A DNA stretch of 42,162 nt from a virus: IMG/VR virus record IMGVR_UViG_3300031569_000012, positions 1-42,162 of that record. One strand, given 5' to 3'. Below, piece by piece: positions 1 to 26,439 of this stretch. The notes beneath the pieces are model-generated. The model saw only the letters and a list, made by a program, of their open reading frames with translations, made no database searches and was not told where the DNA came from. Numbering within the stretch: position 1 is the first letter of the stretch; the number at the start of each line of letters is the position of its first letter. Made by a program: the position numbers and the translations under genes.

Positions 1-89
1 GGTAGTTCGAACTCCGTTAAGCGAAAATATTTGGGTTGAAAAATGTGCGCGCTTCTTCCGTTCTCAGATAGATCAAAAGAGCCCTAAAA
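1..89. other. Non-coding left end before terS
   Basis: No gene is visible here. The stretch precedes the small terminase gene, which is where lambda-like phages keep the terminase-binding part of cos, so this could be part of the packaging site. I see no clear cohesive-end palindrome. The first five bases would supply a stop codon (GGG TAG) to the gene cut off at 42162 if the two window ends are joined. Confidence 0.35.
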
Positions 90-2544: not shown

Positions 2545-2759
2545 TGAGCGAAGAGCTAGATGACGCAAAGAAGCAGCTGACAGCGTGGAAAGAGGCGTCG
2601 ATCCGCGTATCCAAACGCCAAAGCTACACCGTGAACGGTCGATCAATCACGTTCGCAAACACAGCAGAAATAAAAGATATGATCACCTACTGGCGCAGCG
2701 AAGTTAACAGATTAACACGCGGCGGAATCAGAGTGAGAAGGGTTAAGTTCATTGACTAA
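2544..2759 (+). CDS. Head-tail joining protein, gpW-like
   Basis: This 71-aa protein resembles lambda gpW, which stabilises packaged DNA in the head and forms part of the connector to the tail. It has a helical N-terminus, a short beta hairpin around SYTVNGRSITF (about 27-37), a second helix (IKDMITYWRSEVNRL) and a basic C-terminus (GGIRVRRVKF), matching gpW's helix-hairpin-helix plan and length (68 aa). Its position between large terminase and portal is exactly that of W in lambda. Its start overlaps the terL stop and its end overlaps the portal start, so translation is probably coupled. Confidence 0.8.
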   Translation: MSEELDDAKKQLTAWKEASIRVSKRQSYTVNGRSITFANTAEIKDMITYWRSEVNRLTRGGIRVRRVKFID

Positions 2760-4323: not shown

Positions 4324-5626
4324 AGCAGCAGATTACGCGCTCAGAGAACCCTGGGCAATACGTGAAGACGCGCTTGAGAATATCATAGCAATCGCTGATC
4401 GCCGTATTGATGTAGAAGCTGTCGAAGCCAGGATGGGAAAACCGCTTGAGAATACCCGAACGGTTTCGATGCGCGGCGATATTGCTGTTATTCCAGTTTT
4501 AGGCCCTATTTTTAGGTACGCAAATATCTTCACAAGAGTTTCTGGCGCGACTTCTCTAGAGACGCTCGCTTTAGATTTCAACACCGCGCTCGATAATCCG
4601 AAAGTGAGCGGGATCGTTCTAGAGATTGATTCGCCGGGCGGTATGGCTGCCGGAATATCTGAATTCGCTGACATGGTGCGCGCATCATCAAAGCGCGTGA
4701 CAGCGTACGCTTCCAACAACGCGGCGAGCGCTGCGTATTGGATCGGGGCAGCAGCTAAAGAATTTTACATATCAGATACCGCTCAGCTTGGCTCTATTGG
4801 CGTCATATCTGGAATCCGCAAAGAGAGCGATCCGGGCGTGGTGCAGTTCATTAGCTCACAGAGCCCTAAGAAGCGGCTCGACATGGAAAAAGATGACGAC
4901 CGAGGCGCGATGCAGAAAACCATCGATCAGATGGCTGATGTATTCGTCGATAAAGTTTCAAAATTTCGCGACGTAAGCCGTGAGACCGTCCTGTCCGATT
5001 TTGGGCAGGGCTGGGTGTTAGTGGGGGAGCATGCGGTGAAAGCCGGTATGGCCGACGGTGTAAGCTCCCTCGAATCCGTAATAGCCGGATTATCCGGTAC
5101 AACAGCAACGAAAGAGGCATTTAAAATGAAGCCAGAAGCTGTAAAGCCGGAGTCAACCCCGGCACTTACATTGGAAACTCTCAAAGCAAACCACTCAGCA
5201 ATCTATGATCAAGCGTTCGCAGAGGGCGCCACGGCAGGCAGCGACAAGGAGCGAGAGCGCATCCAGTCTGTTGAGTCAGCGGCTTTGCCAGGTCATGAGA
5301 AGCTGATCTCATCGCTGAAGTTCGACGGGAAAACAACGGGCGCTGAGGCGGCTCTTGAGATCGTAAAAGCCGAGCGTGAAAACCGCGCACAGGGGCTTCA
5401 GAGCTTCGGAAGTGAGGCGCCGAAACCTGTCGCGCAGCCCGCAAAAGACGACCTAAGCTCGAATCATAAAGCCGATGAAGATGACGGCATGTCAGATGAT
5501 GACAAGGCAAAAGCAAAATGGGGCAGAGATTCAGAGCTTCGCGCTGAATTCGGTGATGATTTCGAAGCATACAGCGCATACGAAAAGGCTAACGCAAGCG
5601 GCTACGTGAAAGTACTCAAGAAATAA
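4286..5626 (+). CDS. Head maturation protease (S49, ClpP fold) fused to scaffold
   Basis: This 446-aa protein is a lambda gpC-type capsid protease with a C-terminal scaffolding part. The S49/SppA fold is clear: 'LEIDSPGG' at 112-119, the nucleophile in NAASAAYW (Ser148), 'GSIGVI' at 169-174, and lysines in SPKKR (about 194-198) as likely dyad partners. Residues from about 281 on are charged and helical with an acidic, low-complexity stretch and a basic end, as expected for a scaffold. ATG 4286 follows a GAGGA ribosome site 5 nt upstream; the open frame reaches further back, but that part overlaps the portal coding end. Confidence 0.88.
   Translation: MTATNKTEKTKIRAADYALREPWAIREDALENIIAIADRRIDVEAVEARMGKPLENTRTVSMRGDIAVIPVLGPIFRYANIFTRVSGATSLETLALDFNTALDNPKVSGIVLEIDSPGGMAAGISEFADMVRASSKRVTAYASNNAASAAYWIGAAAKEFYISDTAQLGSIGVISGIRKESDPGVVQFISSQSPKKRLDMEKDDDRGAMQKTIDQMADVFVDKVSKFRDVSRETVLSDFGQGWVLVGEHAVKAGMADGVSSLESVIAGLSGTTATKEAFKMKPEAVKPESTPALTLETLKANHSAIYDQAFAEGATAGSDKERERIQSVESAALPGHEKLISSLKFDGKTTGAEAALEIVKAERENRAQGLQSFGSEAPKPVAQPAKDDLSSNHKADEDDGMSDDDKAKAKWGRDSELRAEFGDDFEAYSAYEKANASGYVKVLKK
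5126..5626 (+). CDS. Nested scaffold protein (Nu3-like internal start)
   Basis: An in-frame ATG at 5126 (residue 281 of the protease) has its own Shine-Dalgarno, AGAGG at 5113-5117, eight bases upstream. It would make a 166-aa protein equal to the charged, helical C-terminal part, beginning MKPEAVKPES. Lambda does the same: Nu3 scaffold is made from an internal start in gene C. The arrangement here is seen in the sequence; that the internal start is used is inferred. Confidence 0.6.
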   Translation: MKPEAVKPESTPALTLETLKANHSAIYDQAFAEGATAGSDKERERIQSVESAALPGHEKLISSLKFDGKTTGAEAALEIVKAERENRAQGLQSFGSEAPKPVAQPAKDDLSSNHKADEDDGMSDDDKAKAKWGRDSELRAEFGDDFEAYSAYEKANASGYVKVLKK

Positions 5627-5681
5627 CCCCTAAACCAGTACAGCACACTCTTATTCACAACTAAATTAGGAGCTAGGAATA

Positions 5682-6104
5682 ATGGCTTTATCAAACGATG
5701 AACCACGCGAATACATGGTAGGCGATATTCGTGAATACCCGATCGAGGCCGGTGAGATCTGCTATGAGGGCGCCGCAATCGGTGAGAATGGCTCTGGATA
5801 CTCTCGCGCACTGAATGCCGCCGACGTCTTCCAGGGATTCGCAGAAGAACAGGTCGATAACAGTACCGGTGCAGCCGGAGACAAGAACGTCCGCGTAAAA
5901 ACTCGCGGCAGTGTACTGCTAGAGATAGCCGCTCTGCCTATCACCTCGAACGACCGGCCAGCTGTATACGCATCTGACGACGGAACCTTCACTTTGACCT
6001 CGACCAGCAATAGCCTCATCGGCTATGTATCACAATGGAAAGAGACGGGGTTGGCTCACGTCGAATTTGATGCCGCCCTAGTGCGAGCTGCTCTACAAGC
6101 GTAA
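5682..6104 (+). CDS. Head decoration / capsid cement protein
   Basis: This 140-aa protein lies between the protease/scaffold and major capsid genes, the place of gpD-type decoration proteins. The sequence is mostly beta: an N-terminal acidic 'VGDIREYPIEAGEICYEGAA', a central 'KNVRVKTRGSVLLEI', and a C-terminal 'IGYVSQWKETGLAHVEFDA'. This is the pattern of small capsid cement proteins found beside Mu gpT-type capsids. A strong ribosome site (TTAGGAG) lies upstream. It should trimerise on the capsid surface and stabilise the head against DNA pressure. The exact family is not certain. Confidence 0.65.
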   Translation: MALSNDEPREYMVGDIREYPIEAGEICYEGAAIGENGSGYSRALNAADVFQGFAEEQVDNSTGAAGDKNVRVKTRGSVLLEIAALPITSNDRPAVYASDDGTFTLTSTSNSLIGYVSQWKETGLAHVEFDAALVRAALQA

Positions 6105-6163
6105 CAAAGCAACCACCTGTTTAACCAGAGTTTAATTTAAAACCAATTCAGAGGAATAGATTC

Positions 6164-7102
6164 ATGAAGCGAATCACGAGCCGCGCGGTGATCGGCGAAT
6201 TCTACAAAACGTTAAACGCGGGAACCGGCGCACGCTGGATCAACCCGATATCTATGTATTTCACATCGGACCAAGACTCGGAGGAGTATGCATGGCTCGG
6301 CATGGCGCCAACGCTGCAAAAATGGATTGGTGGCCGAAATGCGAAGGGGTTCCGTGAAAACGGCCTGACAATCGAAAACCTGCATTTTGAGGCAACGATT
6401 GAGGTTCTTGTGCGCATGATGCGTCGAGACAAATCCGGGCAGGTGATGGTTCGTATCCGAGAGCTTGCGCGCCGCGCAAACACCCATTGGGCCAGCTTGC
6501 TGACCACTCTGATACAGAACGCTGAATCACAGGCGTGCTACGATGGCCAGTTCTTCTTCGATACAGACCACGAAGAAGGGAAAAGCGGCACCCAAAGTAA
6601 TGATATCACCACGGATATCTCCACATTACCGGCCCAGGTACATGGCACAGCCGCCCTGCCGAGCCCCGAAGAGATGCAGCAAGCTATCATCAAATCTGTT
6701 GTCCAGATGATCGGCTTCAAAGACGACCAAGGCGAGCCAATGAATGAGGACGCGACGAGCTTTCTTGTGATGGTCCCGTTGAGCATGTATATACCCGCTA
6801 CAAATGCAATCAGCATTCCGCGAGTTGCTGGCGTCTCTGCTCAAAGCGACATGCCTGACAATATCAACATCCAAATAGAGGCGAATCCGCGCCTTACTTG
6901 GACTGATAAATTCGCAACATTCAGGACGGACGGCGAAGTCAAGCCGATGATACGACAGGAAGAGACCGGCGCAATCATGAAGGCCAAGGCAGAAGGCTCG
7001 GAGTTTGAGTTTGACAATGATGCTCATCAGTACGGTATCGATACATGGCGAAATGTCGGGTACGGGTATTGGCAGCACGCTGTACTTAATCAGCTCGTTT
7101 AA
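6164..7102 (+). CDS. Major capsid protein, Mu gpT-like
   Basis: This 312-aa protein matches the Mu-like major head subunit gpT family rather than lambda gpE. Recognisable stretches are 'ISMYFTSDQDSEEYAWLGMAP' split around 31-51, 'LQKWIGGRNAKGF' near 52-64, 'GLTIENLHFEATIEV' near 68-82, and the C-terminal 'YGIDTWRNVGYGYWQ' near 290-304. It should adopt the HK97 fold. Length is close to Mu gpT (305 aa). It has a strong ribosome site (CAGAGGAA). A lambda-type motor and protease beside a Mu-type capsid points to a mosaic head module. Confidence 0.9.
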   Translation: MKRITSRAVIGEFYKTLNAGTGARWINPISMYFTSDQDSEEYAWLGMAPTLQKWIGGRNAKGFRENGLTIENLHFEATIEVLVRMMRRDKSGQVMVRIRELARRANTHWASLLTTLIQNAESQACYDGQFFFDTDHEEGKSGTQSNDITTDISTLPAQVHGTAALPSPEEMQQAIIKSVVQMIGFKDDQGEPMNEDATSFLVMVPLSMYIPATNAISIPRVAGVSAQSDMPDNINIQIEANPRLTWTDKFATFRTDGEVKPMIRQEETGAIMKAKAEGSEFEFDNDAHQYGIDTWRNVGYGYWQHAVLNQLV

Positions 7103-7134
7103 ATCAAGCGTACAGAGCGAAACAAAAAAGATAG

Positions 7135-7155
7135 GCCAGGCGTAGACCTGGCTTT
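7135..7155 (+). terminator. Weak terminator-like hairpin after the capsid gene
   Basis: GCCAGG (7135-7140) and CCTGGC (7147-7152) pair around a 6-nt loop, followed by TTTAATATTT. The T-tract is short, so this would be a partial terminator or RNA-stabilising hairpin, able to give extra capsid mRNA relative to downstream genes. Confidence 0.45.
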
Positions 7156-7173
7156 AATATTTGAGGTGGTTAT

Positions 7174-7464
7174 ATGAAAGTCTATGAAGTAAGGACCCCA
7201 GTCACGCTAAAGCATGGCCGGATAGCATTTGACGAAGATGAGAAAAGCAAAGGTAAGTCGCTTGTTTCTCGGCTTGGCTCTTCTTTAAAGCCTTTAAAAG
7301 GCAAAAAAGGGGAGTATCAGATTACCGCTGATATATGCTTAAAAAGAGGTGTTATCTTCGCCTTCGATGGTAATTTGAAGCCGCTACTAGGGAAGCATTT
7401 AGTTTGTCTTGACGCACCTGAAGCTGCCGCCTCTGAAGATGCCGGCGGCGAACCTAAAAAATAG
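7174..7464 (+). CDS. Hypothetical protein in the head-tail connector region
   Basis: I do not recognise this 96-aa protein. It begins MKVYEVRTPVTLKHG, has a basic middle (residues 27-50, lysine-rich), a beta-like stretch 'GVIFAFDGNLKPLLGKHLV', and an acidic/Ala tail. A good ribosome site (TGAGGTGG) precedes the ATG. It sits between major capsid and the gpFII-like gene, where lambda has the small head-completion gene FI and related phages have connector proteins, so a head-completion role is likely by position only. Confidence 0.55.
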   Translation: MKVYEVRTPVTLKHGRIAFDEDEKSKGKSLVSRLGSSLKPLKGKKGEYQITADICLKRGVIFAFDGNLKPLLGKHLVCLDAPEAAASEDAGGEPKK

Positions 7465-7471
7465 GTAAACC

Positions 7472-7747
7472 ATGTTCGAGGAAGATTTGACGCTATTCTT
7501 TGAAAAAGATGAACTTGCCGATGAGATTGTCATTAGGAAAAGCGGCGAGATCATCGTAGGGATGATTGAGAATGACTACGTTGATATTGACTCTATCTCT
7601 GGCAGTAATCCTGTCTTGGTGTGCGCAACATCAGATTTATACGGACTTAGAAGGGGCGACATCATCGAGCATGGAAGCATTGCCTACGTATTCATTAAAG
7701 ATGAGCCGGACGGCACAGGCGTATCTCGCGCAATACTGGAGCAGTGA
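7472..7747 (+). CDS. Head-tail joining protein, gpFII-like
   Basis: This 91-aa protein resembles lambda gpFII, which sits at the head vertex and makes the surface to which the tail binds. Features: an N-terminal acidic segment, strands 'EIVIRKSGEIIVGMIENDY' (about 18-36), then 'NPVLVCATSDLYGLRRGDIIEHGSI' split over 45-69, and 'YVFIKDEPDGTGVSRAIL' at the end. Lengths are similar in lambda (117 aa) and its relatives. The stop overlaps the next ATG (TGATG), so the two are probably translated together. Confidence 0.65.
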   Translation: MFEEDLTLFFEKDELADEIVIRKSGEIIVGMIENDYVDIDSISGSNPVLVCATSDLYGLRRGDIIEHGSIAYVFIKDEPDGTGVSRAILEQ

Positions 7748-8172
7748 TGAACAGAGCGGAAGCAATACTGGAATCGATCTTGAAAACATTAAGAGATCTA
7801 GAGTCTACGCAGTGCAACATAGAGCGCGATCGGATTTACCCCCCTGAAGATCTACCGGCTCTATCAGTAAACCAGGGCAGCGAAACCCCGGCAGGCGAGA
7901 GTACAATGCAGTTTCAAGACGTGATTCTTGATGTGTCTGTTGAGATCTATCTAAAATCATCAGCATTGAATACGCTATTAAACACTATTAAAAGTGAGGT
8001 CTACGCAGCGCTACTCTCAAGCCCGCAATTAAACCTCCCGTTTGTGCTCAACACGCATTGGCGCGGGGATACCGCACCGGACGTGAGCGGAGACGCAGAA
8101 AGGCCCACGTCACGCTGTAGAATGCGTTTTGAGGTGCATTATCGACACTCATACACGAGTAAAGAGGAATAA
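7747..8172 (+). CDS. Tail terminator / minor tail protein U-like
   Basis: This 141-aa protein begins MNRAEAILESILKTL, an N-terminal helix, followed by beta strands with 'LPALSVNQGSE' and 'QDVILDVSVEIYLKS' and a final 'CRMRFEVHYRHSY'. That helix-plus-sheet plan and its place between the connector and the tail tube fit the gpU/gpZ-type tail terminator family, which caps the tail tube and docks the head. The ATG overlaps the upstream stop. The assignment rests on fold pattern and synteny. Confidence 0.6.
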   Translation: MNRAEAILESILKTLRDLESTQCNIERDRIYPPEDLPALSVNQGSETPAGESTMQFQDVILDVSVEIYLKSSALNTLLNTIKSEVYAALLSSPQLNLPFVLNTHWRGDTAPDVSGDAERPTSRCRMRFEVHYRHSYTSKEE

Positions 8173-8174
8173 CC

Positions 8175-8300
8175 ATGCCGGACGAACAGCAGCCCAGACG
8201 CCGCACGTACAGCATCAAAAAGGGCGGCACACGCACAACAGCCCCGAAGCCGCCAAAACCGCCTAAAGACGAGGTAAAACAGAATGCTGATAAACCGTGA
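8175..8300 (+). CDS. Small basic Pro/Lys-rich protein
   Basis: This 41-aa reading frame starts at ATG 8175 behind a strong AGAGGAA ribosome site. It is rich in Arg, Lys and Pro (RRRTYSIKKGG, then PKPPKPPKDE). It ends 17 nt inside the tail tube gene, which suggests translational coupling. It has no recognised domain and may be a small virion or assembly protein. Confidence 0.5.
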   Translation: MPDEQQPRRRTYSIKKGGTRTTAPKPPKPPKDEVKQNADKP

Positions 8301-9207
8301 AGTGATCCTTGCGAAAATTGAATCTACATACAACACAGACTCCAGCCCAGGTGCCGGTGACGGAATTCTCATCGAGGCGCCATCGTGGACCCACGAGAAT
8401 GCATCAATGGTCGAGCGCGCAGTTGTAAAGGGCACGTTAGGCAAGCATCAGAGCATTTACGCCGGCAACATGAAGGGCGTATCATTTGATGTTGAGATCA
8501 AAGGCTCAGGCGCAGCAGGCACGGCCCCAGAAGTCGGACCACTCTTGCGCGCGTGCTCTCTCGGTGAAACAATTGTAGGCTCTACGAGCGTGACTTACGC
8601 CACCGTTTCAGATTCTCAAGAATCCATCACTCTCTACTACTACAGTGACGGATTGCTGCATAAAATCACCGGCGCGATGGGCAACGCCTCTTTTGATATG
8701 TCTTCAAACGGCATTGGTAAAATCAATTTCACGTTTCTAGGGCATGATGCGGGGCACTCTGACGCTTCGCTCGTCTCAGGCAGTTATGATGCAACAGTAC
8801 CGCCGCCTATCATCAATGTACCGTTCAGTATTGGCGGCTACTCAGCAGCTATTGCAGCGCTATCAATGGACTTGGGTAACAGCGTCACAGCTCCCCCCGA
8901 CATGTCATCAAGTGACGGTTTTGGTGATGTCATCATAAACGCACGCGACGTCAGCGGCTCGTTTGATCCAGCTCAAGTGCTCATTGCCCAAAAAGATTTC
9001 ATCGGCGAATGGAAAGCAGGGACCACGGGCAGCTTAACAACGGGTGTAATCGGCAGCTCGGCGGGTAATCGATACGCGCTCACATGCCCAGCAGCATATT
9101 ACCGCGAAGTAAGCCCCGGCGACCGCGAAGGTTTACGCACGTATGAGATCGGGTTCGCCGCTGCAGAGGTTAGCGGAGACGATGAATTTTCACTAGTATT
9201 TACATAA
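8284..9207 (+). CDS. Major tail tube protein
   Basis: This 307-aa protein should polymerise into the tail tube. The N-terminus 'VILAKIESTYNTDSSPGAGD' and the following 'APSWTHENASMVERAVVKG' are typical of the phage tail tube family that uses 'E..YG..PTP' type openings. The rest is beta-rich with many Gly/Ser/Thr, including 'YAGNMKGVSFDVEIKGSG' near 60-77 and a C-terminal 'YEIGFAAAEVSGDDEFSLVFT' split near 287-307. It follows the tail terminator and precedes the tail assembly chaperone pair, as in most siphoviruses. A GAGGT ribosome site lies upstream. Confidence 0.8.
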   Translation: MLINREVILAKIESTYNTDSSPGAGDGILIEAPSWTHENASMVERAVVKGTLGKHQSIYAGNMKGVSFDVEIKGSGAAGTAPEVGPLLRACSLGETIVGSTSVTYATVSDSQESITLYYYSDGLLHKITGAMGNASFDMSSNGIGKINFTFLGHDAGHSDASLVSGSYDATVPPPIINVPFSIGGYSAAIAALSMDLGNSVTAPPDMSSSDGFGDVIINARDVSGSFDPAQVLIAQKDFIGEWKAGTTGSLTTGVIGSSAGNRYALTCPAAYYREVSPGDREGLRTYEIGFAAAEVSGDDEFSLVFT

Positions 9208-9220
9208 GTAGAGGCTTGAA

Positions 9221-9559
9221 ATGACAATTAATGCAATCAGAAAACTAGATCACGAGTGGTACGAGCCAGAGCGCGACGATCTGGACTCAGAAGAGGCCCA
9301 GCTACCTGGCGCTGAGTATTCGGGGTTTAAAATACGGCCTTTAACCGGCTCTGAACTGATGGATGTATCCGATGTGCAGGGGCTTACAGGGCATCAAAAA
9401 TCGATAATGTTCGCTATGTCCGACTGGCGGAACTTTGCCGACGGCGAGAAGTTCAAGCTAACCAGCGCGCTCAAGCTGATCCCAGCAAAGTATCAGGTGC
9501 GGATCGGTAAACGTATTTTAGAGATTTCAGACTACAGCGGCGAACAGCAAAAAAACTAA
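9221..9559 (+). CDS. Tail assembly chaperone (G-type, zero frame)
   Basis: This 112-aa protein, directly before the tape measure gene, occupies the position of lambda gpG, which coats the tape measure protein during tail assembly. It is acidic at the N-terminus (PERDDLDSEEAQ) with a helical middle containing 'SELMDVSDVQGL' and 'SALKLIPAKYQVRIGKRIL'. Its last sense codons lie on an A AAA AAC slippery heptamer immediately before the stop TAA, and an open -1 frame follows. This is the hallmark of G/GT chaperone pairs. Confidence 0.75.
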   Translation: MTINAIRKLDHEWYEPERDDLDSEEAQLPGAEYSGFKIRPLTGSELMDVSDVQGLTGHQKSIMFAMSDWRNFADGEKFKLTSALKLIPAKYQVRIGKRILEISDYSGEQQKN

Positions 9560-9858
9560 TAATCGCAATTGAGGTCAGCAGGAACGCAAAAGACTACAAT
9601 TGCGAGAAATGCCCGCACAGGCACTGTGATTCTGATAGACAGATTCCCGGCTCGAACGGTCCTGCTCCGTTCCCTAAGTGGGCCATACCTAATGTTATCG
9701 AGACAAACACATGCTTGCTCCCCATGATCACAGAAGAGTCCAACATGTTCTTGCGCCTGCATAAACATTACAAAAACGGCTACCTACCATTTTCCGGCGG
9801 CCTACTGGATCAGCCTCACGTTTTTCTTTGCGCTATGGAGACAATTGATGGGTATTAA
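9221..9858 (+). CDS. GT-type frameshifted tail assembly chaperone
   Basis: If ribosomes slip -1 at 9550-9556, translation continues from CTA at 9556 for 100 codons to TAA at 9856-9858, giving a fusion of about 212 aa. The extension has no good start of its own. It holds a Cys/His cluster 'CEKCPHRHCDSD' and a hydrophobic end, and it overlaps the first 11 nt of the tape measure gene. In lambda, the T part of GT binds the tail tube protein and the G part binds the tape measure. The extension fills the gap that would otherwise separate the G-type and tape measure genes. Confidence 0.75.
9550..9556 (+). promoter_or_regulatory. Programmed -1 frameshift slippery site A AAA AAC
   Basis: The heptamer A AAA AAC is in the correct zero-frame register (CAA AAA AAC TAA) and is followed directly by the stop codon. 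Both tRNAs can re-pair in the -1 frame. No strong downstream pseudoknot was identified by eye. Confidence 0.8.
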
Positions 9859-11815
9859 TGCCGCGTATAAATTCGCAATAAGTGCGAAAAATGATACAAA
9901 AGGGGCTTTTGATGCAATCAACAAAGACCTGCAAAAATCAAACGTAAACATCAGCGCAATGAAGCAAGAGATGCGCTCTCTCACTAACGCAGCCGGCATG
10001 GGCCTTGTTGGCGGCCTGGGCGCTGCGGTTGGCGGCATAGGAACCATGCTCGTTCAAACCGCTGACGCCGCGAGAGAGATACAGAACCTAAGCGATATAG
10101 CCGGAGTCACAAGTGAAACACTGCAGACTGTAGCGTACGGGGCCAAAGCGTTTGGCGTTGAGCAGAGCGATGTGTCAGACGTATTAAAAGACGTGAATGA
10201 TAAGCTCGGGGATTTCATGCAAACCGGCGCCGGGCCAATGGTTGATTTCTTCGAACAGATTGGACCCAAGGTCGGCGTCACGGCTGATCAGTTCAGAAAT
10301 CTGAATTCGGCTGATGCGCTGCAACTTTACGTCTCAAGTCTCGAAAAAGCCAACGTTTCACAGGCTGAAATGACATTTTATATGGAAGCAATCGCTAGTA
10401 ACTCTACCGCACTTTTACCTCTATTTGAAAAAAACGGTGAAGCGCTGGCGGCACAGGCCGAAGAGGCGGAAAAGCTCGGTCTTGTGCTCTCCAATACAGA
10501 CGTTGCTATGCTCGACATGGCCGATAAACAAATGGATAAAGTAGCGGGCTCTCTGAAATCATTCTCAAACGAGATAGCAACAGAGTTCGCGCCGATAATG
10601 CTTGAGCTATCCAATGAATTCTTAAACATGGCAAAAGAGGCCGGTGGTTTCGGCTCAATAGCAACACGAGTCTTTGATGCATCAATCAAAGCCGTGGGCT
10701 ACCTCGGCAACTCTATTCGGGGCCTTGAAGTCATATGGCACGGTCTGAGATTCGTCGCGGTAACGTTCATTGAGGAGAGTATACGCCTCTTTGAGCAGTT
10801 TGAAACAGCGGGGAGGGCGGCTATCAACTGGATACCAGGCGTTGAGGTGTCAGCAGAATCAGCAATAGGAAATATGAGGCAGTCATTTACTAATGTACGA
10901 CATTCAATAGAGCAAGATATTCACGAATCACTAATGAAGCCGATACCGTCGGAAGCCATCACGCTATGGGCCGAAGAGGTTAAAACAAAATCTGAGGAAG
11001 TGGCCCGAACTATTGCCGCCGCTAAAGATGGGCGCATTGATAACGGCGCTGGTGGCGTTGTTGGTTTTGACGCTGCAAATGATCCCGAAGTTTTGGAAGC
11101 ACAGGCGCGCATGCAAGAACTGCAGCTATTAAAAGACGTGCAGCTACAAACGGATCTAGAAAATGAAGAGCTGCAGCATCTATCAAGCGTTGAGCGTTTG
11201 CGCGCTCAGCTAGAAGAGAAAGAGATCACAAGGCAAGAGTTCTATGACCGTGAGCTTGCTCTTATCGGAAAATGGAACGCCGGCATACGTAAAGTCAACG
11301 ACAAGAAATCAAAGGAGGATTTGAAAAACGACAAAACCTCTTTTTCGGGGCGTCTCGGAATGCTGCACGAATTCGCCAGTTCAGCGTCTGAGGTATCAGA
11401 CGACATGCTGAAGGTTTCACAGATAACCGGAGCAGCGCAGGCGCTAATAGCGACATTTCAGGGGCAAGCGGAAGCTCTGAAGCTAGGGTTTCCCCAAGGC
11501 CTGATTGCAGCCGTAAAAGTCGGCGCGGCGGGCTTCGGCTTTGTTAATGCGATAAAGAGCACAACAAAGGGCTCCAGCGGCTCCCCGTCGTCCGGCGTCA
11601 CGTCCCCTACATCGCTGGGGTCACAATCGAACGGCGTAAATCAGCCGCCCTCATCATCCGGAAATACACAAACATTCGAGCCGCAGCAAGTGACAAACGT
11701 GACAATGATCATCGAGCCAGACTCAGACGTATCAGACAAAAAGCTGCGTAAAATAATCGATGGCGTCGTGGACCAGGTCGAAAACCTCAACGTTGAATAC
11801 ATAGCGAGAAGCTGA
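9848..11815 (+). CDS. Tail tape measure protein
   Basis: This 655-aa protein should set tail length and pass into the host envelope on infection. It has a helical N-terminus (YKFAISAKNDTKGAFDAINKD), a Gly/Ala-rich hydrophobic stretch at about 50-72 and 'VTSETLQTVAYGAKAFGVEQ' near 88-107, both typical of siphovirus tape measures. A long charged coiled-coil-like region covers about 400-470, and a Ser/Pro/Gly linker precedes a C-terminal 'DSDVSDKKLRKIIDGVVDQVENL'-type helix. ATG 9848 follows GGAG by 7 nt. At about 0.15 nm per residue it implies a tail near 100 nm. Confidence 0.9.
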   Translation: MGINAAYKFAISAKNDTKGAFDAINKDLQKSNVNISAMKQEMRSLTNAAGMGLVGGLGAAVGGIGTMLVQTADAAREIQNLSDIAGVTSETLQTVAYGAKAFGVEQSDVSDVLKDVNDKLGDFMQTGAGPMVDFFEQIGPKVGVTADQFRNLNSADALQLYVSSLEKANVSQAEMTFYMEAIASNSTALLPLFEKNGEALAAQAEEAEKLGLVLSNTDVAMLDMADKQMDKVAGSLKSFSNEIATEFAPIMLELSNEFLNMAKEAGGFGSIATRVFDASIKAVGYLGNSIRGLEVIWHGLRFVAVTFIEESIRLFEQFETAGRAAINWIPGVEVSAESAIGNMRQSFTNVRHSIEQDIHESLMKPIPSEAITLWAEEVKTKSEEVARTIAAAKDGRIDNGAGGVVGFDAANDPEVLEAQARMQELQLLKDVQLQTDLENEELQHLSSVERLRAQLEEKEITRQEFYDRELALIGKWNAGIRKVNDKKSKEDLKNDKTSFSGRLGMLHEFASSASEVSDDMLKVSQITGAAQALIATFQGQAEALKLGFPQGLIAAVKVGAAGFGFVNAIKSTTKGSSGSPSSGVTSPTSLGSQSNGVNQPPSSSGNTQTFEPQQVTNVTMIIEPDSDVSDKKLRKIIDGVVDQVENLNVEYIARS

Positions 11816-12549
11816 TGGCCGCATTCTATTATGACAATCTCTTGCGCTCCGCTACCGTTCTGAGCGAAGACACAGCAACAGATTTTGAAGTCGAGCGCGG
11901 CCTCGATGGCCGCACGTCAACTCAGGTCGGGATGGAAACCGGCGCGAACAGAGATCTCGTGTTCGATTTCGGCAGCGCTAAATCATTCAGCCATGTTTGC
12001 GTTGCAAACCACAACCTCAACGGGGCGACTCTTACAGTAGCCGGTTCATCTGATAACGCCACTTACACGACAGTAGGCACAATCGCATATGACAACGATT
12101 ATGTTCGGGTGGATGCAGTTACGTCATCGAGCTATCGCTATTTACGGCTCAGATTCAGCGGCCACGCCTCCACGATCTACATAGCAGACATATTCGTCGG
12201 CCAACCGCTTAGCCTGCTCTACGGCATCCCGCACGGCTTCACCCCGCCCGAGCAGGCCGACCAGGACGAGATCCAGGCGCACATGACCGGCGGTGGCTCA
12301 CTAGTGGGCATCAGCATCAAACAAAAGCCAAAAAGGATCAGGCTCGCTCTAAACGATTACCCTGCATCGTGGTTTAAATCAAATTGGCTCGCATTCACTG
12401 AGAGCATGAAAATCTACCCCGGCTATTTCCTCTGGAAAGACGGCGAGCGCGCAATGTTTTTCACTTTCGATCGGCTCATTGGCATTCCTGCGTTTCGCGG
12501 AAATATACGGCAATCAATCAATTTAAATATGATCGGATTCGTTGAATGA
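11815..12549 (+). CDS. Tail tip protein with discoidin-like domain
   Basis: This 244-aa protein follows the tape measure gene (TGATG overlap), the usual place of distal tail proteins. Residues about 25-130 look like an F5/8 type C (discoidin) beta sandwich: 'DLVFDFGSAKSFSHVCVANHNL' split near 46-67, 'TLTVAGSSDNATYTTVG' and 'SSYRYLRLRFSG'. Such domains often bind sugars. The C-terminal half with 'SLLYGIPHGFTPPEQADQDE' and 'RAMFFTFDRLIG' is shared with tail tip proteins of other long-tailed phages. It probably forms part of the tail tip ring. Confidence 0.6.
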   Translation: MAAFYYDNLLRSATVLSEDTATDFEVERGLDGRTSTQVGMETGANRDLVFDFGSAKSFSHVCVANHNLNGATLTVAGSSDNATYTTVGTIAYDNDYVRVDAVTSSSYRYLRLRFSGHASTIYIADIFVGQPLSLLYGIPHGFTPPEQADQDEIQAHMTGGGSLVGISIKQKPKRIRLALNDYPASWFKSNWLAFTESMKIYPGYFLWKDGERAMFFTFDRLIGIPAFRGNIRQSINLNMIGFVE

Positions 12550-14153
12550 GTTTTGAAACAGAAGCCGCGAAACTGTCACGCCATCCGTTCTGGATTGTGA
12601 AGCTGGAGCTGGATGCATCAATCAGCCCTGGCGGATCAGAGTACCACTGCAGCGGGCGACCACCGCTCGGCTACATGTTCCACCCATCGATAAACGATAA
12701 CGGCATTGATACATCACCGACGCGCATGGGCATTGGCGCGGGCTTTGGTCGGCTTGGCCGCGTAACGATTAATTTTCAGGATTTTACATGGGGTGAAAAT
12801 GGTACGTATTGGGCGAAACTATTCGCAGAAAACCCCTACCGACTAGACCGAAAACTGAAATTATACACCGGCTTTTATGACGGCAAAAACTTCGATTGGA
12901 ACAACTTCAGAGAGCAGCTCTATTTCATCAAAAAGGTCACCGGGCCAAACTCAACAGGGCGAGTCACGATACAAGCAGACGACCCGCTCACGCTAATAAA
13001 TCCGGAGCAATCAAGCACGCCAACAGCACCCAACGCTAAATTATTCGCAGACATCACAGCGACGCAAACCGGAACAATCAACATCACCGACAATACCGAT
13101 TTTGAAGCAACCGGCGGGATAGTCGATCTAGACGGGGAGTTCGCAAGATACACGGCCACATCCGGCGCTGATTCGCTTGTTGTCAGTGAGCGCGGTGTCT
13201 ATGGGTCAAAGTCTGACGAGCACTCAGAGGGCGATCAAGTGAGCCCCTGCTATGATTTTGATAAACAAAACGCTGTCGATGTTATTCGAAACCTAATCGA
13301 TAAATTCACGCCAATTCCCATAGCCACATACGTAGATAGTACAGATTGGGATTTTCAGCGCGACGAATATCTTTTTGGGGCAATAGCAACCGGCGTAATC
13401 AAAGCCGGTCAGAGTATCAAAACGGAAATAGAGTCACTCTGTAAAAACTTTTACATATCAGTATTCTTTGATACTGAAGAGCAAAAAGCAAAGCTCGTAC
13501 CCATCGGCCCGCTTGTGACAGCCGCACGGCGCATTACGATAGATAAAAACATATTCTCTTACAGAGAAAATAAAACAGAAGATCAGACAAAGATAGTCAC
13601 ACAGACGCGAATTTATTACGGGCGACGAAACCACTACAGCGGCGAAACTGATAAAAACAACTACAAAGAATGGCTCATTGTTGATAACGGAACAACAGCG
13701 GCCCAGGTCGGAAAAGATCTCGTTCGAGAAGTTTACGCGCAATACATACCTGAAGGCGGCGCATCATCAGCTAACAACCTAGCTGCAAAAATAAACAAAC
13801 AATTTGTGCTTGGCTTGATTAAATACGAATGCACGCTTGACGCAATTGATTCTGACATCAAAGTTGGCGACATAATAGAAGTTTTCAGCCCTGTAATTAC
13901 AGGCACAGACGGCCTACCCGTGCCCACAAGCTTCATTTGTATTGAGCGCGACCACTACGACGGCAGCCTCTATCATTACAAATTTGTAAGAACCGGATTC
14001 GCGCTCGGCAGTAAATATCGATTAATTGCGCCTAACACCATGTCGGGCGTCACGTACACGACCGCGACAGACGAGCAAAAGGCAAAGTACCTGTTTATCT
14101 GTGGCAACAACGGCGAATTCTCAAACGCAGACGCCGGCCATTGCATACTATGA
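12546..14153 (+). CDS. Tail tip / hub protein
   Basis: This 535-aa protein overlaps the previous gene (ATGA). It opens with a beta domain that includes 'FWIVKLELDASI' and 'GFGRLGRVTINFQDF', then a region resembling baseplate hub proteins, with 'LYTGFYDGKNFDWNNFREQLYFIKKVTGP' spread over about 103-137. Later parts include 'DVIRNLIDKFTPIP' and 'YRENKTEDQTKIVTQTRIYYG'. It probably forms the central tail spike or hub through which DNA leaves. The family is inferred from position and beta-rich composition. Confidence 0.55.
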   Translation: MSFETEAAKLSRHPFWIVKLELDASISPGGSEYHCSGRPPLGYMFHPSINDNGIDTSPTRMGIGAGFGRLGRVTINFQDFTWGENGTYWAKLFAENPYRLDRKLKLYTGFYDGKNFDWNNFREQLYFIKKVTGPNSTGRVTIQADDPLTLINPEQSSTPTAPNAKLFADITATQTGTINITDNTDFEATGGIVDLDGEFARYTATSGADSLVVSERGVYGSKSDEHSEGDQVSPCYDFDKQNAVDVIRNLIDKFTPIPIATYVDSTDWDFQRDEYLFGAIATGVIKAGQSIKTEIESLCKNFYISVFFDTEEQKAKLVPIGPLVTAARRITIDKNIFSYRENKTEDQTKIVTQTRIYYGRRNHYSGETDKNNYKEWLIVDNGTTAAQVGKDLVREVYAQYIPEGGASSANNLAAKINKQFVLGLIKYECTLDAIDSDIKVGDIIEVFSPVITGTDGLPVPTSFICIERDHYDGSLYHYKFVRTGFALGSKYRLIAPNTMSGVTYTTATDEQKAKYLFICGNNGEFSNADAGHCIL

Positions 14154-14165
14154 GGCATTAAATAA

Positions 14166-15035
14166 ATGGCAGATTGGAACGACATACCGGACACAGCTAT
14201 CGATGGCGACAGCGCTGCAATACAAAATATATTTTTTTGGTTGCGCGACAACTTGATCGCAGCTCTAGAGGGCTCTGCAAGCGCTGATCGTTTAAAGAAT
14301 GCTGCTCTTGAACTTTTTCAGCCAAACGTTTACACAGATTTTGGCGACGGCTCAGACGGCGCTCTCACAGTCTCGACAAACTCAAACATAGTGCCGGGCG
14401 TACATCAGTACACATCTTTTACGCTCAACAGCGGCATAACGCTAACTAAAGACACGGCTTATTGCGGCCCTCTCATAATCAAATGTACCGGCACGGTCAC
14501 AATAAACGGCACAATACGCGCCGAGAACACGCACACATCTAGCGCGGACACCGGCGGCGGGGGCGGTTACGGGACTGAAGGCGACGGCGACAGCGAGAAT
14601 GGCGTGTCGTCAGCGTACGGCCCCGGCGGAACGTCAGGTAGCAAAAATGGCCAAAGTCTGCTCGGCTCTCAAATGCAGGCCTCTATCATGACCGGCAACC
14701 TATCCCTCGGCGGCGGGCGAGGCGGCAACGGCGGCAACGGCGGCGGCGCAGGCGGCAACGGCGGCGGGGTTGTTGTGATTGTAGCTAAAAGCATAGTGTT
14801 TGACGCTTCCGGTCTGATCGACGCGGCGGGTGACGGCGGCGGGAACGGCTCGCCCAGCGACGGCTCCGGCGGGGGCGGTGGCGGCGGCTCAGTAGTATTG
14901 ATGCACGAAGACAGCATTACGGGACTAGACAGCGACAGCACAGATATCAGCGGCGGCAGCGGCGGATCTTATGCTGCAAATATTGGCGGCGACGGCGGCG
15001 ACGGCGCTGTATTAAGTTTAAACATAAAACAGTAG
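14166..15035 (+). CDS. Glycine-rich tail tip adhesin
   Basis: This 289-aa protein has an N-terminal attachment part (about 1-60, including 'IQNIFFWLRDNL'), a beta part around 70-115, then several glycine-rich stretches: GGGGGYG near 136, GGGRGGNGGNGGGAGGNGGG near 180-200, GDGGGNG, GGGGGGG and a final GGDGGDG. Repeated Gly-Gly-X blocks like these form the polyglycine-II receptor-binding core of gp38-type adhesins on T-even-like phages. The last gene of the rightward tail operon is a usual place for a receptor-binding protein. It ends about 115 bp before a terminator. Confidence 0.65.
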   Translation: MADWNDIPDTAIDGDSAAIQNIFFWLRDNLIAALEGSASADRLKNAALELFQPNVYTDFGDGSDGALTVSTNSNIVPGVHQYTSFTLNSGITLTKDTAYCGPLIIKCTGTVTINGTIRAENTHTSSADTGGGGGYGTEGDGDSENGVSSAYGPGGTSGSKNGQSLLGSQMQASIMTGNLSLGGGRGGNGGNGGGAGGNGGGVVVIVAKSIVFDASGLIDAAGDGGGNGSPSDGSGGGGGGGSVVLMHEDSITGLDSDSTDISGGSGGSYAANIGGDGGDGAVLSLNIKQ

Positions 15036-21864: not shown

Positions 21865-22536
21865 TTACTTGCTACCGACTTTGAGAGAAATCGCCTTGAC
21901 GCCAACGATGTTGCTCATATCGTCCAGTATTCGACATTTTATCAACCTATCGACTGATATCGCGGTATAACTCTCATCAGCATTAACCGCCAACCGGCCT
22001 ATCATATAACCGTGTTTAGTTTTGACGCACACAAAATCACCAGGTTCCGGGGTTTTTGTTGTGTCGATCAATATATATTCGCCTAATGACAGCTCAGGCT
22101 CGTTATTCCTGTCTATCAGTCGAATAAAAAAGCTTTCCTCTACGTTAGCGCATCCCATCATCACCGGTAACTCCATCAACCGCCTAGTTCCTTCTCGATG
22201 CATCGCAATGACATCACTGAAAGTGTCTATATCAGCGTATCGTATAACCGGCACTGTTTCTAGTAACGTTGTGGTATAAGAATTTCCTAGGTCTGCGTGT
22301 TTTGAGCTATCTGCTCTAGCGGCCAAGTTCCTGGCTTTTGGTCCTGAGCCGCTTAGAAGCCAGTCTGTATTGACGCCGAGCGCACGAGCTATTTGAGCTG
22401 CGTACTGAGTAGATTCAGCATGCTCACGCTCCAACTTCGAGATAAGCGTTTGTCCGCAGCCAGCAAGGCTGGCGAGCTTGGGCTGAGTCATTTTAAGACG
22501 TTGTCTTTCTTGCTTAATTCTATCGCCTAATTTCAT
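21865..22536 (-). CDS. CI-type repressor with degenerate S24 domain
   Basis: This 223-aa lysogeny repressor has an N-terminal XRE HTH ('RLKMTQPKLASLAGCGQTLI' and 'SKLEREHAES', residues 13-42), a linker, and a C-terminal S24/LexA-like beta domain from about 95. The dimerisation fold is kept (FFIRLIDRNNEP, LGEYILID, PGDFVCVKTKHGYMIGRL). The catalytic Ser of the usual GxSM motif aligns with Asn (about 144-145), the catalytic Lys of the VKRL-type strand is Gly180, and no Ala-Gly cleavage site is obvious. Self-cleavage is therefore unlikely. ATG 22536 is used; the -10 lies only 6 bp upstream, so the mRNA may be leaderless. Confidence 0.85.
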   Translation of the reverse strand: MKLGDRIKQERQRLKMTQPKLASLAGCGQTLISKLEREHAESTQYAAQIARALGVNTDWLLSGSGPKARNLAARADSSKHADLGNSYTTTLLETVPVIRYADIDTFSDVIAMHREGTRRLMELPVMMGCANVEESFFIRLIDRNNEPELSLGEYILIDTTKTPEPGDFVCVKTKHGYMIGRLAVNADESYTAISVDRLIKCRILDDMSNIVGVKAISLKVGSK

Positions 22537-22542
22537 CGTCAG

Positions 22543-22613
22543 AGAATACAACCTTGGTGTTATTTTGCAAAGGTCTTTAGTGTTTGATTTAAACCACTAA
22601 AGTGTTAGTATAT
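22543..22613. promoter_or_regulatory. cI-cro operator region with divergent PRM and PR
   Basis: Leftward: TTGCAA (22565-22570), 16 bp, TATTCT (22543-22548). Rightward: TTGATT (22584-22589), 16 bp, TAGTAT (22606-22611). Three operator half-site motifs (plus-strand cores CTT-GGTGTT 22552-22561, CTTTAGTGTT 22575-22584 and CACTAAAGTGTT 22595-22606) cover both promoters. The second and third make a 28-bp imperfect palindrome with 8-bp perfect outer arms. Confidence 0.8.
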
Positions 22614-22618
22614 TTCGC

Positions 22619-22873
22619 ATGAGCAGAAAACACGTAGAACACATTCGACGCGCAGTGAAAATACTCGGTAGTCAAGTCGAGCTAGCGGAGGCCTGCGGCG
22701 TTCGTCAAAGCCATGTATCAAACTGGATATGTAGAGATAAGACTATCCCGCTTGAGCGCGCGCTAGCTATTGAGATAGCCACTGATGGTGAAGTAACCAT
22801 GCAGCAGCTTCGCCCGGATCTCTTTAAGAAATTAAGAAGCAATGCAGCGAAAATAAAAGCGCGTAGTACATAA
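22619..22873 (+). CDS. Cro / YdaS-type regulator
   Basis: This 84-aa protein is a YdaS/Cro-like HTH: 'VKILGSQVELAEACGVRQSHVSNWI' (about 13-37, quoted as the HTH span) and 'IPLERALAIEIATDGEVTMQQLRPDLF', the signature end of the family. It is divergent from cI and the first gene of PR, so it should shut off PRM and tune early transcription. The ATG lies about 7 bp after the -10 hexamer and has no ribosome site, so it may be translated from a leaderless mRNA. Confidence 0.85.
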   Translation: MSRKHVEHIRRAVKILGSQVELAEACGVRQSHVSNWICRDKTIPLERALAIEIATDGEVTMQQLRPDLFKKLRSNAAKIKARST

Positions 22874-23720: not shown

Positions 23721-23749
23721 TTGACTGCTCGCTAATACCGCGCAATACT
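23721..23749 (+). promoter_or_regulatory. Candidate promoter for the c4-like RNA
   Basis: TTGACT (23721-23726) and AATACT (23744-23749) are 17 bp apart, within a 350-bp gene-free stretch and about 100 bp before the c4-like core. A constitutive lysogenic promoter is needed at this position in P1/P4-type immunity. Transcription would begin near 23756. Confidence 0.6.
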
Positions 23750-23810
23750 GACTGTGTATCTGCAAAATCAGATGCCGAGGTTGGTCCCTCGAAACCACAG
23801 AGGCGCACAA

Positions 23811-23838
23811 GTCGCCAAGTCAGAAAGCGGCTTTTTTT
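23811..23838 (+). terminator. Terminator-like hairpin before the c4-like core
   Basis: GTCGC (23811-23815) pairs with GCGGC (23827-23831), one wobble, followed by seven T (23832-23838). An overlapping alternative pairs GCGCACAA (from 23803) with TTGTGCGC (to 23844), 8 bp, which would hide the terminator. Mutually exclusive hairpins suggest a regulated stop. Confidence 0.5.
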
Positions 23839-23848
23839 GTGCGCAAAT

Positions 23849-23911
23849 TCCCCCCGAGTTATGGCGGGGAGTTTGGGGAGCTTTGCGGCTCGCCGTTTCC
23901 TTTGTGGCGGT
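23849..23911 (+). ncRNA. c4 / P4-CI-type antisense immunity RNA
   Basis: The segment CCCCCGAGTTATGGCGGGG, then GTTTGGGGAGC, TTTGCGGCTCGCC and TTTCCTTTGTGGCGG, reads like the c4 antisense RNA family of phages P1, P7, P4 and N15 as I remember it. Stem 1 is CCCCG/CGGGG with an AGTTATGG loop; stem 2 is GGGGAGC/GCTCGCC with one mismatch. Bases 23862-23877 can pair with 23920-23935 over 16 consecutive positions (14 Watson-Crick, 2 G-U), matching the self-target arrangement of that family. Such RNAs, processed from a leader transcript, block expression of downstream genes during lysogeny. Confidence 0.7.
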
Positions 23912-23985
23912 AGGACCAACCCAAACTCTCTGCCACCCAATAGTTGGTCCTATTGTGTGGCGGTTAATCAACCACACACAAGGGA
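23911..23985 (+). promoter_or_regulatory. Target leader of the c4-like RNA
   Basis: TAGGACCAAC (23911-23920) and GTTGGTCCTA (23943-23952) form a perfect 10-bp stem that shows the antisense target (23921-23935) in its 22-nt loop. A second hairpin, TGTGTGG/CCACACA (23954-23960 / 23972-23978), sits just before the ribosome site AGGGA (23981-23985). A second GTTGGTCC at 23780-23787 competes for pairing with 23913-23920. Switching between these folds could control translation or termination. Confidence 0.65.
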
Positions 23986-23992
23986 ATCAATC

Positions 23993-24265
23993 ATGTCTAA
24001 TGACTACGTGCGCCCACGCGCCTCATACGTCTACATATCCGCTAAATACGCCCCTCAGCACCGCGAAGCAATACACAACACTGGGATACTATCCCAATAC
24101 GATGGAATCACCCGTATGGCGATCTCACGCCTGCTCATGACTCTTGATCGAGGGGAGGGGGTGGTCATCGAATGGTTTCACGAGCCCTCAAAGATATCAC
24201 CACGCTACTATCTCATGTTGAACGGCACTCATTCTGTTACTGAAATGAAGGGGGTGGCGGCATGA
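23993..24265 (+). CDS. Small protein under the c4-like leader; antirepressor candidate
   Basis: This 90-aa protein begins MSNDYVRPRASYVYISAKYA and includes 'GITRMAISRLLMTLDRGEG' and 'RYYLMLNGTHSVTEMKG', an alpha-beta protein that I do not recognise. ATG 23993 is chosen because it follows AGGGA by 7 nt; longer frames run back through the RNA module. In P1 the gene behind c4 leads to antirepressor synthesis. With a repressor here that looks non-cleavable, an antirepressor role is a reasonable guess. The stop overlaps the initiator gene (ATGA). Confidence 0.55.
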   Translation: MSNDYVRPRASYVYISAKYAPQHREAIHNTGILSQYDGITRMAISRLLMTLDRGEGVVIEWFHEPSKISPRYYLMLNGTHSVTEMKGVAA

Positions 24266-25287
24266 CACAGCATCACTACGATTGTGAGATTGTTGAGACC
24301 GTAGGCATTCAAGCCGCCGTGATTTTCCGTAATTTTCGTTACTGGGTCGAAGCTAACGCAGCTGCAGATCGAAACAAGAGAAACGGCCTCCATTGGAGCT
24401 ACAACAGCATCACACAGCTGACGCGGCTATTCCCGTACATGTCGCGAGATAAAATCCGCTATGCACTCAAGAAGCTTGAGCAATCAGGCCTTTTAATAGT
24501 CGCCGAGTTCAACAAGATGAAGGCGGATAAAACTAAATGGTACTCCGTCGATTACGCAGTTTTCGAGCGGATGAAAGAGGAGTACAGCAACAAGTACACA
24601 CCTCTTTTGCAAGGCAATAGCGCACAAGAAATGGCCGAAGATGACGAAGAGGAGGGGGGTGGTAAAATTCCCGCGGGGGGGTGGGAAAATTCCCAGGGGG
24701 GGTGGGAAAATTCCCAAATGCCTATGGTAAATTTCCCAAATGGGGGTGGTAAAATTCCCAAACCAATACCAGATATAAACATACCAGATATAAACATACC
24801 AGATATAAACATACCAAATATAAACCCCCCTAACCCCCCAAGGGGGGAATCTGAGCAAGCTCAGTCGAGTGTGGGAAAATCTTACTCTGATAACTTTTTG
24901 ATCTTTTGGGAAGCCATCAAAACTGAGTTTGAGTCGGTGGGTTGTTCCATGGGCTCGAAGTCGGAGGCTCTGAAAGAATTCAAAAAGCTCAAGCCTGAAC
25001 AACAAACAATCGATCGCTGGATCGAAGCGGCGAAGCGCCAAGCTGGCGATAAGCTCAGCAGGTCGGCTCGCGGTGAGTTCGCTGAGCAGTTCCAACACGT
25101 CAGCCGATGGCTGAAAAATAAACGTTTCGATGATGAGGTTCAGATTGGGCTACCGGCGCTGATTTCGCCTGCGCAGGCAGGCAGAGCAAAACCGGCCGGC
25201 GCAGCGAAGATCGACGCTATCCGGGCCCACAACCAGCGCGCCTCGATCGAGGCCTACGAAGAAATGATGGCCGAGGAGGCTAACTGA
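24262..25287 (+). CDS. Replication initiator, O-like, containing the origin
   Basis: This 341-aa protein has an N-terminal winged-helix region ('GLHWSYNSITQLTRLFPYMS' and 'RDKIRYALKKLEQSGLLIV', about 43-81) typical of phage replication initiators that bind iterons. Its middle (about 130-200) is low complexity: GGGKIP / GGWENSQ blocks then four IPDIN pentads, because the DNA there is the iteron array and AT-rich repeats. The C-terminal part (about 215-340) is a helical domain ('FWEAIKTEFESVG', 'EQFQHVSRWLKNKRFDDE') found in O-type proteins that contact the helicase loader. Lambda O has the same origin-in-gene layout. It overlaps genes on both sides. Confidence 0.8.
   Translation: MTQHHYDCEIVETVGIQAAVIFRNFRYWVEANAAADRNKRNGLHWSYNSITQLTRLFPYMSRDKIRYALKKLEQSGLLIVAEFNKMKADKTKWYSVDYAVFERMKEEYSNKYTPLLQGNSAQEMAEDDEEEGGGKIPAGGWENSQGGWENSQMPMVNFPNGGGKIPKPIPDINIPDINIPDINIPNINPPNPPRGESEQAQSSVGKSYSDNFLIFWEAIKTEFESVGCSMGSKSEALKEFKKLKPEQQTIDRWIEAAKRQAGDKLSRSARGEFAEQFQHVSRWLKNKRFDDEVQIGLPALISPAQAGRAKPAGAAKIDAIRAHNQRASIEAYEEMMAEEAN
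24654..24759 (+). repeat. Five origin iterons
   Basis: 19-bp units GGGGGGTGGKAAAATTCCC start at 24654, 24676, 24697, 24719 (degenerate) and 24741, spaced 21-22 bp, close to two helical turns, so all bound proteins would face one side. The G-runs could also form quadruplexes on the plus strand. Confidence 0.9.
24766..24847 (+). other. Origin unwinding element: four tandem 15-bp AT-rich repeats
   Basis: ATACCAGATATAAAC repeats at 24766, 24781 and 24796 and, with one change, at 24811 (to 24825). It follows the iterons directly, as the AT-rich unwinding element follows the O-binding sites in lambda. It is closed by CCCCCC-AA-GGGGGG at 24834-24847. Confidence 0.85.
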
Positions 25288-26229: not shown

Positions 26230-26439
26230 ATGTTAATACTAACGCGAAGACCCGGCGAGAGCTTGATAATCGGGGATGATATCAAAATAACCGTTCTGGG
26301 CGTAAAGGGAAATCAGGTGCGACTAGGGGTAGATGCACCGCAGTACATAACAGTGCATAGAGAAGAGGTTTATAATAGAATCAAGGGGAAACGGCATGCG
26401 CGCAATCAGTCAGCAGGCTCATCTATTGACGATAAATGA
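26230..26439 (+). CDS. csrA: CsrA/RsmA translational regulator
   Basis: This 69-aa protein is a clear Csr[21 protein letters not shown], then [15 protein letters not shown]-type core strands and '[10 protein letters not shown]'. The RNA-contact residues at the first strand (LTRR) and the VHREE arginine are kept, so it should bind GGA hairpin loops in mRNA leaders as a domain-swapped dimer. ATG 26230 matches the family N-terminus; an in-frame ATG two codons earlier exists. Its own ribosome site is AGGGA (26219-26223), which fits the CsrA core ANGGA and suggests autoregulation. The tail ([12 protein letters not shown]) is phage-specific. Confidence 0.95.

Follow-up and report, generated by a model that had tools for sequence, protein, structure and literature searches.

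A predicted C4-family antisense RNA with an IsrK-type RNA between cro and the replication gene of a temperate phage

Small antisense RNAs that control phage immunity have been described under several names. C4 and IsrK form separate entries in the literature, including a 2025 review (PMC12197685), and C4 and c4-a1b1 are listed as RNA motifs (PMC2864571). In phage P1 the C4 RNA acts around the ribosome site of the first ORF and keeps it from being translated (PMC12197685; PMC8198154), the annotated order of the elements being a1, b1, C4, a2, b2 and icd; in the immI region of P1 and P7 the coupled gene is an antirepressor and the c4 promoter is under C1. In P4, a satellite, the CI RNA pairs with seqA and seqC, which leads to termination (described in PMC4825925). 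The study of Gifsy-1 noted that IsrK resembles P4 SeqA and discussed STnc1160 as CI-like (PMC4825925). There, isrK-orf45(STnc1160)-anrP follows a Q-like gene outside the cro-replication operon and the target gene is an antirepressor. Rfam models place isrK and C4 together in P4, N15, SfV, 2H10, YDC107_1, phiARM81ld and Gifsy-1 (isrK at 1292-1368 and C4 at 1394-1477 of the Gifsy-1 locus, L345), while P1 carries C4 with c4-a1b1 and no isrK over cut-off. The isrK and c4-a1b1 families overlap in place in Gifsy-1, with isrK outside that clan.

The closest arrangement is that of SfV, Ayreon, 2H10 and one E. coli prophage, which display the order cI-cro-orf-[isrK-C4]-short ORFs-replication protein, Ayreon being included from a DNA match only. 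The SfV module is present in 1215 of 5426 complete E. coli genomes. No function test of this module was found in the mainly open-access literature searched, a result that does not imply absence.

Organisation of the isrK-C4 region

The window, i.e. the whole stretch of 42,162 nt analysed here (IMG/VR record IMGVR_UViG_3300031569_000012), derives from a temperate phage and, as read from its sequence, encodes a predicted C4-family antisense RNA together with a putative IsrK-type decoy RNA. The main features of the region are the following.

21865-22551, - strand: CI-like repressor gene (HTH; weak S24 peptidase match)
22619-22873, + strand: Cro-like HTH gene of the early right operon (YdaS family, P22 Cro)
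23721-23749, + strand: putative sigma-70-like promoter of the isrK-C4 transcript (TTGACT-17-AATACT)
23756-23837, + strand: isrK-family sRNA (RF01394), comprising hairpin 1, hairpin 2 with a1, and an intrinsic terminator
23857-23940, + strand: C4 antisense RNA (RF01695), from covariance match and fold
23862-23877, + strand: 5' arm of the C4 closing stem, TGGCGGGGAGTTTGGG, pairing with 23920-23935 (Rfam alignment and fold)
23920-23935, + strand: 3' arm of the C4 closing stem, CCCAAACTCTCTGCCA (Rfam alignment and fold)
23993-24265, + strand: ORF90, in the icd position, starting 52 nt past the C4 end
24262-25287, + strand: replication initiation gene (O-like / DnaD-like; phrog_11233, E=2e-27)

A comparison of all Rfam families with the window gave just two matches above cut-off, isrK and C4, both on the + strand of this region. 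The C4 model RF01695 aligns over its full length (1-87/87) with 23857-23940(+), scoring 60.8 bits against a gathering threshold of 45 (E=1.8e-9 for the whole 42-kb window). The first-pass annotation had taken the phage to have a lambda-like CI/Cro switch and, within its early right operon, a c4/P4-CI-type antisense RNA, a proposal to be given up if a C4 covariance search gave no hit; with a match above the cut-off, it stands. Folded by itself, the C4 RNA takes on the structure of its family with an energy of -41.2 kcal/mol (z=-4.0), a stability equalled by 0 of 200 shuffled sequences, and its closing stem joins TGGCGGGGAGTTTGGG to CCCAAACTCTCTGCCA through 16 consecutive pairs, two of them G-U. 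The core motif also occurs by chance in 46 phage contigs, where Rfam rescoring returned 0 C4 covariance matches; thus the motif alone is insufficient for an RF01695 match. All elements that had been named from the sequence (the promoter-like sequence, the terminator-like hairpin, the core, the 16-base pairing and the 10-bp hairpin) are found in their places, but the two pairings had been assigned each other's role. The 16-bp pairing 23862-23877/23920-23935, taken for the contact of core and target, is the internal closing stem of C4 in both the Rfam alignment and the fold, whereas the 10-bp hairpin 23911-23920/23943-23952, thought to present the target, is itself the predicted antisense contact a'/a2. 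Because the 16-bp pairing is the closing stem of C4 itself, motif and complementarity do not support each other independently as had been held, and changes at 23862-23877/23920-23935 bear on C4 folding and not on targeting. Two elements had been overlooked, namely a1, the copy of the target 5' of C4, and the isrK-family RNA (23756-23837) that carries it.

The isrK model RF01394 matches 23756-23837(+) with 55.1 bits (gathering threshold 50; E=3e-9), again over its full length (1-77/77) and with a terminator at its end. This terminator-like hairpin is formed by AGTCGC (23810-23815) and GCGGCT (23827-23832), followed by a T run to 23838, its 3' part GCGGCTTTTTTT corresponding to 23827-23838. The full-length fold contains an extended terminator hairpin and a CCCC/GGGG alternative near 23850-23870, which is probably what had been noted as a competing fold. 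The promoter-like TTGACT-17-AATACT is by itself no more than chance would give, with 1 occurrence against 1.5 expected from shuffles. Its -10 element ends 7 nt upstream of the first base of the isrK match (23756), a spacing that appears correct for the putative promoter to start the isrK-like RNA. The c4-a1b1 model (RF03163) remained below its cut-off, with 24.4 against 46.7 bits at 23743-23795, where it overlaps the isrK match; the a1 and b1 pairings are present despite this score.

Six segments of the region make up the contacts between C4 and the flanking leader, named here after their P1 and P4 equivalents.

23780-23787, + strand: a1, upstream copy of the C4 target, GTTGGTCC, in isrK hairpin 2, mostly loop
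23796-23803, + strand: b1, upstream partner of b', CACAGAGG
23896-23906, + strand: b', loop region of C4 hairpin 2, anti-Shine-Dalgarno, TTTCCTTTGTG
23911-23920, + strand: a' (equivalent of P4 seqB), TAGGACCAAC, mostly single-stranded, after C4 hairpin 2
23943-23952, + strand: a2 (equivalent of P4 seqC), downstream target of a', GTTGGTCCTA, 10-bp perfect complement of a'
23977-23986, + strand: b2, Shine-Dalgarno sequence of ORF90, partner of b', CACAAGGGAA

The a' segment is complementary to targets on both sides of C4. Its 8-mer GGACCAAC complements both 23780-23787 and 23943-23950, and when the flanks were shuffled 20000 times, an 8-mer of the a' region with complements both upstream and downstream arose in 3 cases. 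The segment duplex of a' with a2 reaches -18.8 kcal/mol and that with a1, an exact complement (GTTGGTCC), -17.6 kcal/mol. Judged by this complementarity, a' 23911-23920 and a2 23943-23952 would form a real antisense contact. Similarly, b' can pair with the ribosome-binding region of ORF90, forming a 10-bp duplex including one G-U with b2 (segment energy -14.8 kcal/mol) and a 9-bp duplex with b1 (-14.4 kcal/mol). The b2 segment begins 16 nt 5' of the ORF90 ATG. ORF90 and the replication initiation gene overlap in the sequence ATGA, an arrangement that makes their translational coupling likely.

The genes around the module have few relatives. ORF90 displays no family match in PHROGs, Pfam or NCBIfam and no relative among the viral contigs or phages searched. 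No relative of the 25287 ORF was found among the viral contigs searched, and four annotated phages have a similar replication gene. Neither the module region nor the 20-27.5 kb interval has DNA similarity to annotated phages, and a search for CI-operator-like repeats between the CI and Cro genes gave nothing convincing. The protein encoded by the replication gene (24262-25287, + strand) bears INIPD/GGWENSQ-type repeats, arranged in tandem in its central part. A CsrA-like regulator (26230-26439; Pfam CsrA, E=1.7e-26) is encoded on this strand as well, beyond the replication gene, placing an RNA-binding protein of the phage close to an RNA switch. At 1-15000 of the + strand the head and tail genes (small and large terminase, portal, S49 peptidase) follow, by eye, a lambda/N15-like order, in contrast to the early region, which has no DNA relative among annotated phages.

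Covariation and geometry across C4 loci

The conservation of these contacts was examined in 41 C4 loci, comprising the window and 40 loci from bacterial genomes and phage contigs collected via Rfam rescoring, in which 23 of 369 genomes of one class were positive. An isrK pattern scan of genome contigs was too loose, but bacterial genomes from it were used further on. In viral contigs, isrK and C4-core DNA patterns proved to be mostly chance sequence, C4 being recovered in only 2 of 50 pattern-matched viral records rescored with Rfam, both through the isrK pattern. An exact complement of a 7-mer of the a' region occurs both upstream (within 320 nt) and downstream (within 100 nt) in 34 of the 41 loci, against a mean of 2.0 and a maximum of 7 when C4 cores were swapped among flanks in 200 permutations. 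A few of these loci share a 7-mer from the b' loop and not from a', but the conclusion holds all the same. The C4 loop pairs with the Shine-Dalgarno region of its own locus at a mean of -19.5 kcal/mol, compared with -13.4 kcal/mol for permuted partners (sd 0.44, best -14.7). The loci are phylogenetically non-independent, so the covariation is a strong indication and not an exact probability. An ATG lies 40-58 nt 3' of C4 in 48 of 49 loci (range searched 38-75 nt), and the spacing of the ORF90 start codon matches that of the other loci.

Published mutations of Gifsy-1 map onto the a1/a' contact. Mutations G28A/C162U and G31A/C159U alter translation of the downstream gene and partly compensate each other when combined (PMC4825925), and G28/C162 and G31/C159 fall exactly on a1/a' pairs (own numbering, +1 = L345:1292). 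The Gifsy-1 orf45 begins at an AUG within the conserved 5' part of C4 (L345 1292-1477), thus orf45 occupies the C4 RNA. An 'ash family protein' annotation of E. coli (L351 3448-3993) crosses the C4 RNA, as does the cI/ash ORF of P4 (L338 8168-8584); at least that part of these ORFs may therefore be a reading of an RNA gene.

The window resembles SfV, P4 and P1, each in different respects. SfV displays the same two Rfam matches in the same order (isrK 64.2 bits, C4 82.3 bits), likewise located between cro and a replication protein, and its short ORF starts 54 nt past C4, compared with 52 nt for ORF90. The window shares the whole SfV-type order of the early right operon, with cI on the - strand and cro on the + strand, followed by isrK-C4, a short ORF and the replication protein. 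In contrast, SfV, Ayreon and 2H10 have no detectable DNA similarity to the window, and SfV carries two short ORFs (about 77 and 78 aa) where the window has a single unrelated ORF of 90 aa. With P4 the window has in common the isrK and C4 matches, a leader antisense RNA before a replication operon and target copies upstream and downstream. The likeness does not extend to homology of the replication protein; the P4 operon encodes the alpha primase and not an O-like initiator, and P4 lacks a lambda-like CI/Cro pair. With P1 it shares the order from a1 to the icd position and much of the geometry: b1 lies 14 nt after a1 in P1 and 16 nt in the window, the placement of a1 is alike, b2 starts 18 nt before icd and 16 nt before the ORF90 ATG, respectively, and icd overlaps ant1 by 4 nt just as ORF90 overlaps the replication gene. 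The P1 likeness ends there, as no coupled antirepressor follows in the window, where the next genes are ORF90, without a family, and the replication initiator. The view that a c4 RNA is uncommon on a lambda-like switch does not hold, because N15, Gifsy-1, SfV and 2H10 combine isrK and C4 with lambda-like control; the close C4 DNA match in Ayreon and the number of E. coli genomes with the SfV module contradict it as well.

C4 also occurs in a different setting. In the genome of Pseudomonas maioricensis S25, rescoring of 150 out of 1113 candidates yielded at least 19 C4 matches, with scores of 59-82 bits. The genes that follow them encode paralogous small proteins (DUF6124/DUF3077) or Bro-N-like proteins, most of the matches retain both a' targets, and at least two adjoin apparent core genes (by eye, selD-like and acyl-CoA-dehydrogenase-like). 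Here a C4 switch seems to have multiplied outside prophages.

Proposed mechanism and alternatives

We consider it very probable that the region is a C4-type antisense module in the SfV/P4 arrangement, which would lock the replication operon via ORF90, with the isrK-like RNA as a possible decoy. The putative promoter at 23721-23749 would start an isrK-like RNA that mostly stops at its own terminator (23838). Transcripts reading through would carry C4, which would be excised by processing in the manner of P4 CI. C4 would then bind the leader of the same operon twice, through a' with a2 and through b' with b2, the Shine-Dalgarno sequence of ORF90. A block of ORF90 translation would silence the replication initiation gene through the loss of coupling, possibly with premature (Rho-type) termination. 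In the lysogen this would provide a second, RNA-level lock on replication behind CI, together with superinfection immunity. Since both target sites also occur in the isrK-like RNA, as a1 and b1, this RNA can pair with C4; by doing so in cis or, as a decoy, in trans it would release the lock. We infer that the RNA is made, processed and acts along these lines, and a C4 block on ORF90 translation and, by coupling, on the replication operon seems the most likely mode of action. In Gifsy-1 the short IsrK activated translation, while co-expression of STnc1160 and IsrK did not relieve the growth arrest (PMC4825925), which makes the decoy step uncertain. A more specific reading, offered tentatively and with a probability somewhat below even, is that in the window and the SfV group C4 acts as a direct RNA lock on a lambda-type replication initiator, behind CI and with no antirepressor involved, and that the isrK-like decoy opens this lock on induction.

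Pairing of C4 with a1 and a2 could instead act mainly by premature termination of leader transcription, as P4 CI terminates via seqA and seqC (described in PMC4825925), and not by a block of the ribosome site. The a1 copy lies just 5' of an intrinsic terminator and the P4 record displays both isrK and C4 matches, but the strong covariation of b' with the Shine-Dalgarno region argues for the ribosome site as direct target and no intrinsic terminator was found 3' of C4 on the + strand. Termination as the main mode is possible, with some doubt, and the two mechanisms can coexist.

The identity of ORF90 bears on what the lock finally guards. As ORF90 is without a known relative, the final target of C4 may be either the replication gene or ORF90 itself as an antirepressor or Icd-like protein. 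In the latter case C4 would guard CI indirectly, as in P1, with any effect on replication being secondary. ORF90 occupies the icd position, many C4 loci have an antirepressor as the next or second gene (Bro-N, AntA or Rha-like by inspection; Bro-N by Pfam), and icd-ant follows C4 in P1 as AnrP does in Gifsy-1 (PMC4825925). ORF90 nevertheless has no family match and the gene after it is a replication initiator, so that an antirepressor role appears rather unlikely here.

It is very improbable that the open frame encodes a translated protein (as annotated for Gifsy-1 'orf45', P4 'cI'/ash and the PGAP 'ash family protein') and that the RNA pairing is incidental. The frame of ORF90 is open from 23522 across the entire module, the equivalent frame is open in 30 of 48 C4 loci (18 and 15 in the other two frames), and orf45 of Gifsy-1 was detected with a tag (PMC4825925). 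In contrast, the AUG of C4 and the downstream start share a frame at just 16 of 45 loci, which is at chance level, the nucleotides of Gifsy orf45 are conserved while its amino acids are not (PMC4825925), and the covariation of the a' and b' partners has no coding explanation. A conserved protein translated through C4 was set aside on these frame counts. A chance resemblance or a decayed, functionless remnant is extremely improbable given two above-cut-off families in the right order, exact complementarity on both sides, the absence of C4 matches from the 46 phage contigs with chance core motifs, and an intact start site and ORF90/replication gene overlap.

The preferred reading of a C4-type lock on the replication operon thus describes a well-preserved new example of a known arrangement and not a new kind of system, its placement between cro and the replication gene being common since SfV, Ayreon, 2H10 and E. 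coli prophages share the gene order. It extends an antisense immunity module known experimentally from P1, P4 and, under other names, Gifsy-1 to a phage without a detectable DNA relative. C4, the seqA/CI/seqC elements of P4 and IsrK/orf45, described separately, are linked by covariation, and a direct control of replication by C4 in lambda-like phages becomes simply testable.
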